Source of the DNA: a virus
DNA length: 64,000 bases
Virus record (IMG/VR): IMGVR_UViG_3300032235_000637
Span: 1-64,000 of that record
Reading direction: 5' to 3' (one strand)
In this document: in pieces, positions 402 through 22,280 of the stretch
How the letters are laid out: each line of letters starts with the position of its first letter
Numbering within the stretch: the stretch's first letter is position 1
Notes under the pieces: model-generated
Database searches by the model: none
Told to the model about the DNA's origin: nothing
The model's input: the letters and a program-made list of their open reading frames with translations, nothing else
Program-made: the position numbers and the translations under genes

Positions 402-1790
402 TTAGTTTTCTTCCTCCATGTTAGTCTCTCCCTTGTCTCTATCAGCAGATTCACCGATCAAGAATTTTGGTGATTTATATTTCAGTGCAGTCTTCTTAGG
501 ATCACTTTCGTTACGAAGAACGATACCCTCATTGACAACACCAGTGGTGCAGAACTCGCAAGTCTTATCAAGATACTTGTCTTTCAAATCTGTTAGGAAT
601 TTCTCTCTCCATATCGAAGGATCGAAATCGGAATTGTAAAAAATATTAAACATATCTTTTGCTTTACCTTTGTAATAGACTGGAACATGTTTCAGTCCTT
701 CTATCATACAGAATAATTCAATTTCATTCCAAGAGCATTCATGAATACCATCGGGAGTATTCTTCGTCATACGATAGACAAAGAACTCCACTTCACCTTG
801 TTTGACACCATAATCGTAATTCTTTTGAACCATCTTGCTAGAAGATGTATAACCGACAATCTCGCCATAGATCGTGAACCCTTTAGGAATCTTACCCTCC
901 AAACGAGATGCAATCACACCCCAAACATTGTCAGTATATTTACCATCTTTACGGTTTTGCAGGACGTTTCTCGAAGAATATACCAACCTGTGTTCCGTCT
1001 CTTCCACACCCAATCCAATTTTCTTACCAAGATATCGGAAGATGTTGAATGGTTTCTTACACAGAACGTTACCCCCCACGAATGAAGTGCCATGATATTT
1101 ACTTGTGCAAACAATATCATCATCAGGATTGACCTTGAATATATTCTTACCCAAATTTTCTGTACTGTAATGGAATGCCCAATGACCATCCACAATCAAG
1201 CTACCGATACCATGCTTGTTCTTATCATAGAAGTAATTGATACCAGTGTATAGACGCTTACGAATAGGTAGAGGAAAGACACGAATAGTGCTTTCCACCC
1301 ACTTAGGAATACGTTTCTTAGGCTCATTCTGATTACCAGTATTACGCTGCACGGCGATGTATTTCTTCACCAGAAGATCATCCTTGACAGTATCGAAAGA
1401 CTCTCCCAATTTAAACACAGACTCTTTGACACCGTAGTATTCGGCAAGCTTGGATACTTTGAAAAGGAATCCTTGACTCGCAACCTCCCGAAGTTTGATA
1501 GCACGAACCCTTCCATTGGAAGCGAAGTAAGATTTCGTCTTACCATCGGCATTCAATTCTGGTTTATCCAATAGGTTTCCCCATGCTAGAAATGGTTGAG
1601 AGATGCTTGCCTCAACAGGAAAATATACTAATTTTTCGCCTTTTTGATAACTATCTTTAGCCACCACCACATCACCACCGAAGACGGTTAGAAGTTCTAA
1701 TTTGTCGGCATTAGGATGAATTTTGGGTTCAGGGCATTCAATTACCGTAGCAAGGTAATTCGGGTCACAATTTTTTGAGATACTAATCAT
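402..1790 (-). CDS. RNA ligase, Rnl5/DRB0094-like
   Basis: 462 aa. It carries the covalent nucleotidyltransferase motifs: motif I K231-YHG, motif III around E310 (FTIYGEIVG), motif IV NEGIVLRN at about 420-427 and motif V ALKYKSPKF with K437/K439. The first 110 residues (IHPNADKLELL, VVVAKDSYQKGEKLVYF) look like the N-terminal OB-fold domain of the Deinococcus DRB0094 RNA ligase family. The expected reaction is ATP-dependent sealing of RNA nicks. A second ligase of another family lies at 21162-22280 and a PNK-like protein at 29511-30014, so an RNA-repair role is plausible. It is transcribed behind a 28-codon gene that carries the promoter. Confidence 0.88.
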   Translation of the reverse strand: MISISKNCDPNYLATVIECPEPKIHPNADKLELLTVFGGDVVVAKDSYQKGEKLVYFPVEASISQPFLAWGNLLDKPELNADGKTKSYFASNGRVRAIKLREVASQGFLFKVSKLAEYYGVKESVFKLGESFDTVKDDLLVKKYIAVQRNTGNQNEPKKRIPKWVESTIRVFPLPIRKRLYTGINYFYDKNKHGIGSLIVDGHWAFHYSTENLGKNIFKVNPDDDIVCTSKYHGTSFVGGNVLCKKPFNIFRYLGKKIGLGVEETEHRLVYSSRNVLQNRKDGKYTDNVWGVIASRLEGKIPKGFTIYGEIVGYTSSSKMVQKNYDYGVKQGEVEFFVYRMTKNTPDGIHECSWNEIELFCMIEGLKHVPVYYKGKAKDMFNIFYNSDFDPSIWREKFLTDLKDKYLDKTCEFCTTGVVNEGIVLRNESDPKKTALKYKSPKFLIGESADRDKGETNMEEEN

Positions 1791-2857: not shown

Positions 2858-3814
2858 TTATTTCGTTAATTCTTTATGTAATTTCTGACACTCTTGAGCG
2901 ATTTTCCACACAGCATTGACACCACGACCGAACTTTTGGAGCTTGCCTTCTCCAACCATTTCACGTAGAATGTTACCAGCGGTTTGTCCTGAGACGTTCA
3001 GCTTATCACAGATACGATCCAATGTCAAGTGAGGAGGTTCATCCATTGCAAGAATTTCTTGTTTACGCTTGTCGTTAGCAGGTTCTTTATCTTTCTTCTC
3101 TTTGACTTCCTCAGTAGGAGCAGTGTAAAGACCTTTGAAATCAAAACCATTGGCATTCATAATAGCCATGTGAGTCTTAGTCTCACCGAAGCGATTCTTA
3201 TAAACGTTGAAAATACGCAGTGTATTGTCATCAGGATCGACAGTTATTTTTAGATTCACATCGACGGCATGGATAATATCAGTACCACCTTTTGGAAGTC
3301 CTTGAGTCGTAACATGGAGGACGAATACCAACACGCAACCAGTCTCTTTAGCAGTGGAAAGAAGTAAGTCTTGTGCATATTGATAGAACTCCCGCTTCTT
3401 CATGTTCTTGTTAGAACGAAGAGCTTGAAAGCTATCAACGACCATCATGTCATAGGAATACATAGCAGCAGCAATTTCTTCCACATCCTTGATGTGTGCT
3501 ACATCCACATCAGTAACACCTAAACGCTTACAAGCATATGCGATTTGAATGTGAGACTCTTCACCAGATGCTACTGCCACACGCTTACCTTGATTTGTAA
3601 GCAATTGGGCAATCTGTAAAAGTGCGGTAGATTTCCCCGTTCCCCCTGGAGCGCAAATGGTGATGGCACTACCTGCCATGAATCCTTTGAATTGTTCAGT
3701 GCCAAACATAGTGTCAATCTCATCGTTACCAGTTGACATGCGATTGTAGAACGCATCTGGAATTTCAATGGATGAGCATTTGGCGAATTTGGTTTCGAGA
3801 GTATTGAGTTGCAT
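2858..3814 (-). CDS. RadA/KaiC-like P-loop ATPase with C-terminal winged helix
   Basis: 318 aa. Walker A is CAPGGTGKST (K61), followed by VASGEES at about 81-87, a hallmark of RadA/KaiC-type ATPases, and Walker B MMVVDS ending near D127. The C-terminal 60 residues (LTLDRICDKLNVSGQTAGNI) read as a winged-helix DNA-binding module. The RadA zinc finger and Lon-like domain are absent. Likely role: DNA recombination, repair or helicase-like remodelling. It is the first gene of its transcript; its ATG lies 9 nt after the -10 box TACACT. The family assignment is firm, the exact role is inferred. Confidence 0.8.
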   Translation of the reverse strand: MQLNTLETKFAKCSSIEIPDAFYNRMSTGNDEIDTMFGTEQFKGFMAGSAITICAPGGTGKSTALLQIAQLLTNQGKRVAVASGEESHIQIAYACKRLGVTDVDVAHIKDVEEIAAAMYSYDMMVVDSFQALRSNKNMKKREFYQYAQDLLLSTAKETGCVLVFVLHVTTQGLPKGGTDIIHAVDVNLKITVDPDDNTLRIFNVYKNRFGETKTHMAIMNANGFDFKGLYTAPTEEVKEKKDKEPANDKRKQEILAMDEPPHLTLDRICDKLNVSGQTAGNILREMVGEGKLQKFGRGVNAVWKIAQECQKLHKELTK

Positions 3815-6735: not shown

Positions 6736-6780
6736 GAGCGAGAAGTAAAATTTTTGCGTAATTAGGAACTTCTGATGCTC
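6736..6780 (-). repeat. Hairpin unit 1 of tandem RNA array
   Basis: Outer stem GAGC/GCTC, 3-nt bulge ATC opposite C, inner stem AGAAGT/ACTTCT, then TCCTAA and an apical stem AAAA/TTTT. Confidence 0.7.
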
Positions 6781-6789
6781 AAAGTTAGA

Positions 6790-6838
6790 GAGCGGGAGGT
6801 AGAATTTCCATAAATTTATTTAGGAACCCCCTTTGCTC
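6790..6838 (-). repeat. Hairpin unit 2 of tandem RNA array
   Basis: Outer stem GAGC/GCTC, bulge AAA opposite C, inner stem GGGGGT/ACCTCC with one G-U pair in minus-strand RNA (an A-C mismatch if plus strand), apical AATTT/AAATT. Confidence 0.7.
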
Positions 6839-6853
6839 AAAGTTTGGAAAGTG

Positions 6854-6912
6854 TTTCAAACGGAAAGTAATAATTTAACAGATTATTTTTTAGGAACTTT
6901 CTTTGTTTGAAA
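6854..6912 (-). repeat. Hairpin unit 3 of tandem RNA array
   Basis: Longest outer stem, TTTCAAAC/GTTTGAAA, bulge AAA opposite C, inner stem GAAAGT/ACTTTC, apical AATAAT/ATTATT with loop CTGTTAA. Confidence 0.72.
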
Positions 6913-6919
6913 TTTTTTT

Positions 6920-6970
6920 AAGCGGAGAGTAATAATTTAACAGATTATTTTTTAGGAACTCTCGTTGCTT
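6920..6970 (-). repeat. Hairpin unit 4 of tandem RNA array
   Basis: Outer stem AAGC/GCTT, bulge AAC opposite C, inner stem GAGAGT/ACTCTC. The apical part is identical to unit 3. Confidence 0.72.
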
Positions 6971-7039
6971 GAAATTAATTTAACAGGTTTTTCGTGTTTG
7001 TCAAGAAAATATTTTAGATCATTTTAAATCATGTCGATA

Positions 7040-7058
7040 GTATACTCTAGTTTTTTAA
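7040..7058 (-). promoter_or_regulatory. Accessory-type promoter driving the ncRNA
   Basis: The reverse strand reads TTAAAAAACTAGAGTATAC then T. -10 TATACT is followed after 6 nt by ATG ATT TAA, so the usual start-codon position is filled by a two-codon frame. The motif overlaps the stop of 7055-7489. Confidence 0.68.
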
Positions 7059-13831: not shown

Positions 13832-14326
13832 TTTTTTAACTCTCCAATCCACCACGACCTTATCAAAAGGTTCTACCTCATGAATACCATCCCATTCGAC
13901 TTCTGTTCCATTGTAGGACTGGTAATATCCTGGAATGTAATAATAACCATGGAGAACACCCTCTCTTTCGACTTTAAAGACACAATGCCAGTGTTCACCT
14001 TCTCCTTCTCCACCACCCTCTTGATCAACCACTTCAATAACCCAGTCAAAGAATTCCAATTTATTCTTTCGATATGGGAAATCATAAGGTTCCACACCAT
14101 ATTTCAATTCACCATTTGTTGGATTTTTGAGGAATTTCTCACATTTTTCTTCATCTGTGAAGAAATCAAGAACTTTCTTAATATTCTTCGGATTAAAATT
14201 CACCAAAAAATCTGCTTCCGCTTTCTCAGCTTCCGCTTTTTTCAGAGCTTCCGCTTCTTTCTTAACTGCTTCTAATTCTGTGTTCAATTTCTTGATCTCT
14301 GCTTCAATTTGTTCTTTCGTTTTCAT
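13829..14326 (-). CDS. Hypothetical protein with N-terminal coiled coil, 165 aa
   Basis: Residues 1-40 are a Lys/Glu/Ala coiled coil (IEAEIKKLNTELEAVKKEAE). The remainder is beta-rich with a glycine loop (DQEGGGEGEGEHWHCVFKV). It overlaps the upstream NTase-fold gene by 4 nt. Function unknown. Confidence 0.6.
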   Translation of the reverse strand: MKTKEQIEAEIKKLNTELEAVKKEAEALKKAEAEKAEADFLVNFNPKNIKKVLDFFTDEEKCEKFLKNPTNGELKYGVEPYDFPYRKNKLEFFDWVIEVVDQEGGGEGEGEHWHCVFKVEREGVLHGYYYIPGYYQSYNGTEVEWDGIHEVEPFDKVVVDWRVKK

Positions 14327-15099
14327 GTTGTTCTTAATTTATTTTCTGTTTCTGCTTGTTTAAATTTATCAATATATGAGAAATCTCTATCGCTTCTCAG
14401 GACATCAATGTTTGTTAGGATGAAGAATTTGAACCAGCCACTACTCATGGTTGTAGCCAATTTCTTCAAAGCTTTCTGATACGCTTCAATTTTTGAGAAT
14501 TTGAAGTCACGGGGGATCAACCATCTTTCCAATGCAGTCACCCATACTTCCTCTTTCACAAGATTTAATTTATCATCATAGGATAATTTGTCAAATCCTT
14601 TTTTAGAGCATGACACACCTTCATACACCAAAGATTCGTATAATGGTTTATCGTAGATAGCCACAGCTTCATGGATGTCATCGTGAACATACTTACGTTT
14701 CACTGCATCCTCAAAAAATGTTTCCGAATCCTTTCCTTTCAGAGATGCCCACTTAACTCCATGGAGATTGGTAAAGCCTTTGACCAATTTTTTATATAAT
14801 TTTTCATCGACAACACATCCTTTGGATTTCAAAAAACAAACATCTGATACATGTTTTTCCCAAAAGATGTTCCATCCCAAATGAGCCAATTTTAAAGTAT
14901 AAATGAAATTTAAATCGAGATATACAGCATCTTCATTATTGTCTAAAAAATACTGAAATTCGGGAATCCAATGGTATTCCACTTCTTTAGAAGAAACACC
15001 ATCTTTGGAGATATAATCAACATCCTTTGGTGTTCGAGGAAAATCAGGACACCAATGTTTGATCGCTGTCGATCCGTATACCAAAAGTTCTTTACTCAT
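14323..15099 (-). CDS. Nucleotidyltransferase-fold protein, 258 aa
   Basis: The N-terminus LLVYGSTAIKHW followed by PKDVDYI gives the GS...DxD pattern (G9-S10, D26, D28) of the minimal nucleotidyltransferase fold, seen in a common phage family. The rest is helical. Substrate unknown. First gene of its transcript, ATG 6 nt after TACAAT. Confidence 0.68.
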   Translation of the reverse strand: MSKELLVYGSTAIKHWCPDFPRTPKDVDYISKDGVSSKEVEYHWIPEFQYFLDNNEDAVYLDLNFIYTLKLAHLGWNIFWEKHVSDVCFLKSKGCVVDEKLYKKLVKGFTNLHGVKWASLKGKDSETFFEDAVKRKYVHDDIHEAVAIYDKPLYESLVYEGVSCSKKGFDKLSYDDKLNLVKEEVWVTALERWLIPRDFKFSKIEAYQKALKKLATTMSSGWFKFFILTNIDVLRSDRDFSYIDKFKQAETENKLRTT

Positions 15100-15850: not shown

Positions 15851-15856
15851 ATGTAT

Positions 15857-16651
15857 ATGACAATGACCGATAAAATTTGTAGTAAATGTAAAATCAATAA
15901 AAGCGTTTTGGAATTTTATAAAAGAAACGATACTAAGTGTGGATTTAGATCACATTGTAAATCATGTGTAAGTACCCGCGAAACAGAAAAAAGAGATAGA
16001 CAACGAGGTAGTAAAAGAAAGAATTGTAAATATTCTTTTAACGAAGATAGATTATTACAAGATGATTTATTAACTTGGTATATTGCTGGATTATTAGCTG
16101 CCGATGGACATATTCATGAAAAAAAACAGAGTGTTTCTTTGACTTTAAAAATGGAAGACATTGAAACTATTAAAATTTTTAAAGAATATTTTGAATATGA
16201 TGGTGTTGTGTCAATGTATCAAAACAAATATCCATATGTTCGTATTAATGGCTCCAAAAAAACTGTCAGCATATTAAATGATAAATTTAACATCACCCCG
16301 AAAAAATCTTTAACATTACTTCCACCGTGCAATATACCATCGTCAGAACATGCTCTAGCATATATAATTGGATATATAGATGGCGATGGTTGTATTTATA
16401 CAACACCAAAAATAACGCAATTACAAATTTTAGGAACTGAAGATTTGTTAAATTTCATATTAGGGGTTTTTTCAGAGTATTGCAATGTTAGTAATTTAAG
16501 ACCTAGAAAATCTTCAAGTGAAAACGTATTACAAATTTGTTTTTCAGGTAATCTCACAAACAATAAATGTAAATATTACAATATCTTGAAAAAAATGAAA
16601 GAATTGCCTGTTCCGAAAATGGAAAGAAAATGGTCAAAGTTGGTATTTTGA
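15857..16651 (+). CDS. LAGLIDADG homing endonuclease with N-terminal Cys cluster
   Basis: Two LAGLIDADG helices are visible: WYIAGLLAADGHI and YIIGYIDGDGCI, each ending in the acidic catalytic residue, so it is a two-domain monomeric enzyme. The N-terminus has CSKC and CKSC pairs, a zinc-finger-like module. About 264 aa. An ATG at 15851 is also in frame, but 15857 fits the TAAATA spacing. Only this gene and 34001-35338 break the minus-strand run before 35 kb. Its TGA lies inside the right 10-bp repeat. Confidence 0.88.
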   Translation: MTMTDKICSKCKINKSVLEFYKRNDTKCGFRSHCKSCVSTRETEKRDRQRGSKRKNCKYSFNEDRLLQDDLLTWYIAGLLAADGHIHEKKQSVSLTLKMEDIETIKIFKEYFEYDGVVSMYQNKYPYVRINGSKKTVSILNDKFNITPKKSLTLLPPCNIPSSEHALAYIIGYIDGDGCIYTTPKITQLQILGTEDLLNFILGVFSEYCNVSNLRPRKSSSENVLQICFSGNLTNNKCKYYNILKKMKELPVPKMERKWSKLVF

Positions 16652-21161: not shown

Positions 21162-22280
21162 TTATAATTCTAAGATTTTCTCCATTGCCTTGCGCACAAC
21201 TTTATCATCAACCTTACGATTGTCAAGTAGAAGAAATGCAATAGCAGTCTTCCAATCACAAAACTCTTGTTGAATTGCAATTGCTTGTTCTTTGCGAGTT
21301 TCGTAATTCTGAATAAAAGGAATACGCTCATTCATATTGTCCACACCCTTTACGAACTTAGCATAGGCATCAGTGATTTCTTGGATAAATGGTTTACATT
21401 TTTCCGCGATCTCAAAATCGAGTAACTTTTCAATATGGCTATAGAAATCTTCATATTTGGTGAATTTTGGGGATTCCATAAATACATCCAGAACATTTTT
21501 TACATTTTTAATTCCAGTAGCAATTTTATGAAGTTCACAGTATTCACTAGCTTTGATTTTCTTCAAGGTTTGGTTATCGGGAGAGTAGATAACCACACCC
21601 TCTTTACCTTTCCATGCTGTCACATCGGCAATACACTCTGACAGAGACTCGTAATGATATTTTTCAGGACGACCAATACGCAAAGTCCATTGCGCAAAAT
21701 GATCGACAATATCTTGTTTCCAGTATTCACCCGTCTCATTGTCAATCACTCCCAAGAGAGTCAGAGTTGGTTCGTCATGCTCTCGTAGAACAATTGTGTT
21801 TGTAGGAGTTGTCCATTCAAATAGCATCGAAACATGATTCGTTTCACTCTCACTCTCACCAGATAAAGCGTTACACATGTCCCAATGACCGTTATCGAAC
21901 ACCCACGGATATTTTTTTACCAGTAGATCAATTTCATGACCATTAGGAAGTTGGCGAGCATCTACAGTGCCACGGGTTCTGGTAATCCACTGACCTTTGT
22001 ATCGAGAGACAATTAAAAGACTACCATCCAACTTATGTCGAGCTTCAAATTTCCAACAATCTTTCCATGGTTCAAATGCTGGTTGCTCTCCGAAATTTGT
22101 AAATTTTCGGAATCCTTGGCTGATTACGAAATTGTCAGACTTCCGCACAATACAAGAACGGAAACGAGTATTTTCGTCGTTCCATTTTACGCTCATGTCT
22201 TTCGGCGTAATAAGCCAACATTCGTCACCAGCGATGACGCAATCTTTAAAATTAAATTCTTCTTTGTTTGGTAGTTTCAT
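21162..22280 (-). CDS. RNA ligase, T4 Rnl1-like
   Basis: 372 aa. Motif I is RHKLDGSLLIV with K83 the expected AMP-accepting lysine, motif IIIa SMLFEWTTPTN (E155), motif IV WKGKEGVVIYS (E227) and motif V LKKIKASEY (K241/K243). The helical C-terminal 120 residues fit the T4 Rnl1 type. T4 Rnl1 rejoins tRNAs cut by host anticodon nuclease together with Pnk; the same defence-reversal role is plausible here. T4 co-localises its ligase and kinase genes less tightly than this, but the kinase-like gene lies 7 kb away at 29511. Confidence 0.85.
   Translation of the reverse strand: MKLPNKEEFNFKDCVIAGDECWLITPKDMSVKWNDENTRFRSCIVRKSDNFVISQGFRKFTNFGEQPAFEPWKDCWKFEARHKLDGSLLIVSRYKGQWITRTRGTVDARQLPNGHEIDLLVKKYPWVFDNGHWDMCNALSGESESETNHVSMLFEWTTPTNTIVLREHDEPTLTLLGVIDNETGEYWKQDIVDHFAQWTLRIGRPEKYHYESLSECIADVTAWKGKEGVVIYSPDNQTLKKIKASEYCELHKIATGIKNVKNVLDVFMESPKFTKYEDFYSHIEKLLDFEIAEKCKPFIQEITDAYAKFVKGVDNMNERIPFIQNYETRKEQAIAIQQEFCDWKTAIAFLLLDNRKVDDKVVRKAMEKILEL

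Follow-up and report, generated by a model that had tools for sequence, protein, structure and literature searches.

The small RNAs closest in plan to those considered here are the Y RNAs of Ro60. At the vertebrate Ro60 site, one strand of a helix has a single bulged C and the opposite strand a bulge of 3 nucleotides (nt) (PMC4726728). In the rsr-yrlBA-rtcBA operon, a tRNA-like Y RNA adjoins RtcB, and the tRNA-like domain of YrlA has been proposed to be a competitive inhibitor of an anticodon nuclease (PMC7790460). Here we describe an array of four hairpins on the minus strand of 64,000 nt of viral DNA (IMG/VR record IMGVR_UViG_3300032235_000637, positions 1 to 64,000; this whole stretch is called the window), upstream of a gene whose 596-amino acid product joins a helical-repeat N-terminus to a TerD-like C-terminus, and for which "HEAT-TerD" serves as a working name. 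The hairpins belong to an RNA family in which a constant handle carries a variable head, and the heads very probably mimic parts of tRNAs. These tRNA pieces on the handle are the new result of the analysis, and the array has the look of a so far undescribed decoy or sensor for damage to tRNAs.

The handle system resembles Ro60/Y RNA in plan. Permuted units of relatives, though none of the window's four, contain a tRNA-like module with a closed acceptor, and in most of the bacterial loci the partner gene lies next to an RtcB-family gene, the RNA ligases of the window being of other types. By the tests made, however, neither the RNA nor the protein is a member of that system. The stem of the handle does contain a C and a 3-nt bulge, which, compared with the Ro60 site, are directly opposed and reversed in orientation relative to the loop. 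The tRNA module is on the other side of the bulge and C from that of YrlA, and the family comes in tandem arrays whose heads vary widely and are mostly hairpins, anticodon stem-loops included. A search with the Rfam Y and YrlA families at the gathering score returned nothing in the window or in ten related loci; one match to YrlA of 36.4 bits in locus L105, under the cut-off of 69, covers two neighbouring tRNAs. The identity of the protein with Ro60/TROVE was likewise rejected, since hhalign against the TROVE alignment gave a probability of ~0.2% and Ro60 is absent from the top 50 Foldseek matches. A true TROVE/Ro60 gene does occur in one Chryseobacterium genome (G003, contig C5, 409308-410054), ~390 kilobases (kb) from the HEAT-TerD gene.

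The hairpin array, its RNA family and its partner protein

The handle common to all units consists of an outer stem, an ANA bulge facing a single C, a 6-base pair (bp) inner stem and the sequence UUCCU. In the window, the four hairpins sit at 6736-6970 on the minus strand, and sequence and fold agree with the anatomy given in an earlier note on this DNA. All the inner stems that it listed (GAGAGT/ACTCTC, GAAAGT/ACTTTC, GGGGGT/ACCTCC and AGAAGT/ACTTCT), all its outer stems (AAGC/GCTT, TTTCAAAC/GTTTGAAA and GAGC/GCTC twice) and, in each of the four hairpins, the 3-nt bulge facing one C and the UCCUAA after the inner stem are present. The array stretch folds better than 200 of 200 dinucleotide shuffles (z -3.34), and single units give z values of -2.6 to -3.4 against shuffles. 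Unit 3 is the one that the note had seen to pair through a G-U as minus-strand RNA; in L002, which encodes a 96% identical protein, its partner strand is ACCCCC and the pairing is all Watson-Crick. In the inner stems of 153 units in related loci there are 11 G-U pairs against 1 A-C. Therefore, the RNA is the gene-sense strand, which in the window is the minus strand, as had been proposed. In L002, L003 and L006, the hairpins stay upstream of the gene while their sequences differ.

A descriptor of the handle asked for an outer stem of 4 bp or longer, a 3-nt bulge, an inner stem of 6 bp with U as its last base before UCCU, and the single C. It matched the gene strand 459 times and the opposite strand 37 times over 166 loci. 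There are 366 distinct matches, 328 once the consensus bulge and stem end are required; the bulge is AAA, AUA or ACA in 316 of the 366, and 93 different inner stems occur. An alignment of 62 diverse units, chosen beforehand for pairing and drawn from outside the window and its close relatives, is 97.9% paired with 205 cells altered on both sides, and its covariation score is 0.798; shuffled controls give 0.269, and slid pairings score no more than 0.21. Since these units had been selected for pairing, the stronger test is the search with R1, the covariance model built from them. On the 64-kb window R1 returns exactly the four units, with expectation values (E) of 3e-13 to 1e-8, the next best match having 1.7. 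A covariance model made from other units thus recovers the four hairpins of the earlier note, and together with the covariation it bears out selection on RNA structure and the minus-strand direction.

The note had recognized no family, and Rfam, at the gathering score on the window and with relaxed thresholds around the array, gave no relevant one; the T-box riboswitch, considered for its relation to tRNA, has no Rfam match in the window either. The window DNA shows no similarity to known phages, and a literature search of open-licence papers found no description of the RNA family or the system. RNA-repair operons are reportedly surveyed by Burroughs and Aravind (2016), who may mention the partner protein.

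The 366 distinct matches lie beside members of a single protein family, and the phage and bacterial loci with this pairing number well over a hundred. Six of 296 Bacteroidota genomes encode the full-length protein; these six, and no others, have R1 RNAs, always beside the gene. When the RNA alone was searched for, in two DNA-pattern scans, 15 of the 19 phage records tested proved to encode the protein, the other four being contigs of 6-36 kb. It is very likely that the handle RNA family is real and that the HEAT-TerD protein is its partner; both the family and the linkage are well supported. Relatives of the protein are found in the cyanophages S-CRM01 and S-CBWM1, in gut phages, in large phages and in Bacteroidota chromosomes.

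The AlphaFold2 model of the protein has a predicted local distance difference test score (pLDDT) of 93. Its C-terminal half, which contains a DLDLS motif, has a TerD fold: Foldseek aligns it to 9a6r_B (E 3.9e-4), a chain of SCP2, which we take to be a TerD protein, and also pairs the protein with viral tellurium-resistance-like proteins. The N-terminal half consists of helices and matches HEAT/ARM-type proteins only weakly. Unlike TerD proteins, the partner has the TerD fold fused to a helical-repeat domain; searches of Pfam, NCBIfam, PHROG and PADLOC assigned it to no family, and no member of its family reaches the Pfam TerD cut-off. More distantly related proteins of ~750 amino acids in four Bacteroidota genomes (L205-L208) match residues 101-226 of the family, and R1 RNA was not found in the short stretches examined there.

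tRNA-copying heads

The folds of units 1 and 2 leave a 6-bp stem and the loop CUGUUAA, which is the anticodon loop of tRNA-Asn(GUU). The head of unit 4, AAUU-ACGCAAA-AAUU, has a 7-nt loop that is at most Cys(GCA)-like, and L003 has CUGCAAA at the position of this loop. For the family as a whole, a strict test was applied: the stem of a head had to reach 4 bp, and its 7-nt loop had to match exactly an anticodon loop from the tRNAs of the same loci. This test was passed by 43 of 276 distinct simple heads, compared with a mean of 0.9 (maximum 4) for shuffled, 1 for reversed and 3 for reverse-complement controls. Phage heads alone gave 11 of 131, versus 0.6, 0 and 2 in the controls, and 4 of 23 new heads found by DNA pattern passed, versus 0 and 0. 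The Lys(UUU) loop accounts for 24 of the 43 passing heads, many of them from related Chryseobacterium, and it is present on differing stems in cyanophage S-CRM01, gut phages and Bacteroidota. Heads of relatives also have Asn, Asp, Cys, Ile, Gln, Glu, Ser, Pro and Thr loops.

Larger pieces of tRNA are copied as well. T-arms are found in the heads of 37 units, and among the 24 units with heads of at least 60 nt, 4 hold a linear tRNA and 15 yield a tRNA once circularized, the handle then falling in the anticodon loop (controls, 0/24 and 0/72). Several heads are thus circularly permuted tRNAs. The reverse arrangement is seen in 38 distinct tRNAs of Bacteroidota, in which the anticodon region contains the same handle, its end sealed by a short loop. 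The permuted heads and the handle-bearing tRNAs yield one structure, namely a tRNA-like body with an anticodon arm that leads into the handle, and mimicry of tRNA parts is well supported.

Individual cases may be listed here. Phage handle hairpins with permuted modules comprising T-arm, closed acceptor and D-arm lie at L071 3047-3173, L040 3682-3803, L085 2946-3079 and L015 4615-4732, and Bacteroidota tRNAs with a handle insert of ~40 nt at L098 3689-3798, L105 3456-3569 and 3579-3695, L112 765-877, and L169 3485-3601 and 3674-3794. A UUGGA-type apical sequence recurs in small A/U-rich heads, for example in L007, L026, L039, L047 and L111.

Possible roles of the array

What might such an array do? 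A constant handle, varied tRNA pieces, a linked protein and repair neighbours together suggest decoys or sensors for attack on tRNAs. We propose that the array would be expressed as trans-acting small RNAs, each a constant handle with a variable head copying an anticodon stem-loop, T-arm, whole tRNA or permuted tRNA, the anticodon arm of the last leading into the handle. The handle is most likely bound by the HEAT-TerD protein, which would keep the RNAs as a ribonucleoprotein, the heads would serve as decoys or sensors for tRNA-cutting or tRNA-modifying enzymes, and the repair RNA ligases would act together with them. We give this explanation as a whole a probability of about one half. For the decoy or sensor function of the heads on its own, the odds seem to us slightly less than even, and we offer more tentatively the generalization that a widespread ribonucleoprotein bait array, coupled to RNA repair and displaying pieces of many tRNAs, absorbs or senses the attack of an anticodon nuclease or a similar enzyme on any tRNA, in phages and bacteria alike. 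The RNA decoy was one of three functional options in the earlier note and comes closest, since the heads copy anticodon loops and other tRNA parts; the decoy function itself we infer. The note was right about structure and strand, its antitoxin option finds no support, and it missed the tRNA mimicry and the repair neighbours. PrrC and the PARIS nuclease are known to attack tRNA-Lys(UUU), and colicin E5 the tRNAs for Asn and Asp, which fits our proposal and proves nothing.

Transcription is predicted from a sigma-70-like promoter that is kept ahead of unit 1 in four relatives, L002, L003, L006 and L020. The earlier note had put the promoter at 7040-7058, which is the wrong place; with the site conserved among relatives, TTGACA-16-TAAATT at 7004-6977, the predicted RNA start falls at the base of unit 1.

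Of the 80 bacterial loci, 67 have an RtcB-family gene no more than 4 kb upstream, 61 have a WYL regulator and 38 have RlaP, a nucleotidyltransferase of RNA repair; many of the loci are Chryseobacterium, so that these counts are not independent. The array in Bacteroidota usually comes after the RtcB-family gene. In these 67 neighbours (e.g., L142 2176-3567) the Pfam RtcB match is mainly C-terminal, residues 189-444, and they may be a divergent RtcB. The phage of the window, a myovirus by its tail sheath and terminase, has two RNA ligases, both of them possible functional partners of the array, and an RtcB or RNA_ligase domain is present in 7 of 11 phage records tested.

Several observations weigh against the decoy or sensor proposal. 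Most heads are A/U-rich hairpins that lack an exact natural anticodon loop, and in the window no clear anticodon-type head is seen in unit 3. Under a looser stem criterion (3 of 5 stem pairs), 72 heads match versus 24-30 in controls; because this gives too many control matches, the strict test alone was used. The conservation of UUCCU, the single C and the pairing is partly built in, because the descriptor demands them, and many Bacteroidota units are so closely related that their counts are not independent. Several of the 11 phage records, some being fragments, have no RNA ligase. In addition, the YrlA tRNA-like domain is not cut by the nuclease studied (PMC7790460).

The likeness to Y RNAs invites another explanation, a Ro60-like surveillance complex in which the RNA would gate and tether the protein and the heads would recruit a tRNA-binding partner (a nuclease, a ligase or a modification enzyme) rather than serve as bait. 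A YrlA-like plan, with a handle stem and a tRNA-like module encoded beside an RNA-binding-type protein and an RtcB-family gene, speaks for it, as do the bulged C and opposing 3-nt bulge of the vertebrate Ro60 site. Given that the protein is not TROVE and that many heads are mere anticodon stem-loops, a feature not known from Y RNAs, we consider this complex unlikely.

In the window, the array separates the promoter from the start codon, and no terminator-like site intervenes; many Bacteroidota loci and two large phages have a unit immediately ahead of the gene. It could be argued, therefore, that the HEAT-TerD protein binds tandem hairpins in its own mRNA and autoregulates. However, the array is downstream of the gene in L039, L063, L089, L097 and L017, and a 424-kb phage has eight scattered units, one just upstream of the gene and others up to ~100 kb off. 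Thus, the RNAs probably act in trans, and a cis-acting leader, which has no evident need of tRNA heads, is an improbable explanation. The earlier note's option of a leader of the TerD-domain gene fails as a full account, and survives in that a leader copy of the unit may regulate its own gene.

Permuted and handle-in-anticodon tRNAs beside RtcB-family genes also recall permuted and intron-containing tRNAs, so that the handle could be an intron, or mark permuted ends, excised in the making of functional tRNAs by a ligase. We regard such a maturation element as very improbable, since most units, including all four in the window, have no tRNA body, and several handle-bearing tRNAs have anticodon stems that look degenerate by eye. 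No bulge-helix-bulge or evident mature tRNA was noted. A type III toxin-antitoxin array, as in the note's antitoxin-like option, is scarcely credible: like ToxI, CptI and TenpI, the units are tandem structured repeats ahead of a protein gene, but their anatomy is different, their heads copy tRNAs, some lie far from the gene, and the gene encodes the HEAT-TerD protein, for which no nuclease match, of the ToxN/CptN/TenpN-like endoribonuclease type or any other, was found.

If the heads are decoys or sensors, as we favour, the display of tRNA parts would be a general answer to tRNA-cleaving enzymes. Irrespective of their role, an RNA family and a tightly linked, unnamed protein family are added to phages and Bacteroidota chromosomes. 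They provide a second protein family, unrelated to Ro60 by profile, with a Y-RNA-like plan near RNA-repair genes, and thus the role of bacterial Y RNAs becomes testable in an independent case.

Features and other genes of the window

Table 1. Positions in the window of the array, its predicted promoter, the partner gene and the RNA ligase genes
Feature	Position	Strand	Description	Basis
Sigma-70-like promoter (predicted)	6977..7004	-	TTGACA-16-TAAATT, TG before -10	Consensus scan; same arrangement in L002, L003, L006, L020
Unit 1	6920..6970	-	Outer AAGC/GCUU, bulge AAC facing C, inner GAGAGU/ACUCUC, UCCUAA, anticodon-stem-loop head	Fold; R1 E 2.7e-11
Unit 1 head	6931..6949	-	AAUAAU-CUGUUAA-AUUAUU, 6-bp stem; exact tRNA-Asn(GUU) anticodon loop at 6937-6943	Fold; same as natural tRNA-Asn loops
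Unit 2	6854..6912	-	Outer UUUCAAAC/GUUUGAAA, bulge AAA facing C, inner GAAAGU/ACUUUC	Fold; R1 E 3.3e-13
Unit 2 head	6869..6887	-	tRNA-Asn(GUU) anticodon stem-loop as in unit 1	Fold; loop comparison
Unit 3	6790..6838	-	Outer GAGC/GCUC, bulge AAA facing C, inner GGGGGU/ACCUCC (one G-U)	Fold; R1 E 1.1e-11
Unit 4	6736..6780	-	Outer GAGC/GCUC, bulge AUC facing C, inner AGAAGU/ACUUCU	Fold; R1 E 9.8e-9
Partner protein, 596 amino acids	4913..6703	-	Helical-repeat N-terminus and TerD-like C-terminus	AlphaFold2, Foldseek, co-occurrence with RNA
RNA ligase	402..1790	-	3.1 kb downstream of partner gene, same strand	phrog_968 2.6e-56; PF09414 1.7e-9
Second RNA ligase	21162..22280	-	T4 Rnl1/gp63 type	phrog_562 1.9e-39

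Between the HEAT-TerD gene and the first RNA ligase, a RadA/DnaB-like ATPase is encoded at 2858-3814 (minus strand), and it is kept in L003 and L006. Further along the window, 14323-15099 (minus strand) encodes a phage protein with DUF7275 and phrog_6944, and 15851-16651 (plus strand) a homing endonuclease of the LAGLIDADG type, on the strand opposite that of its neighbours.
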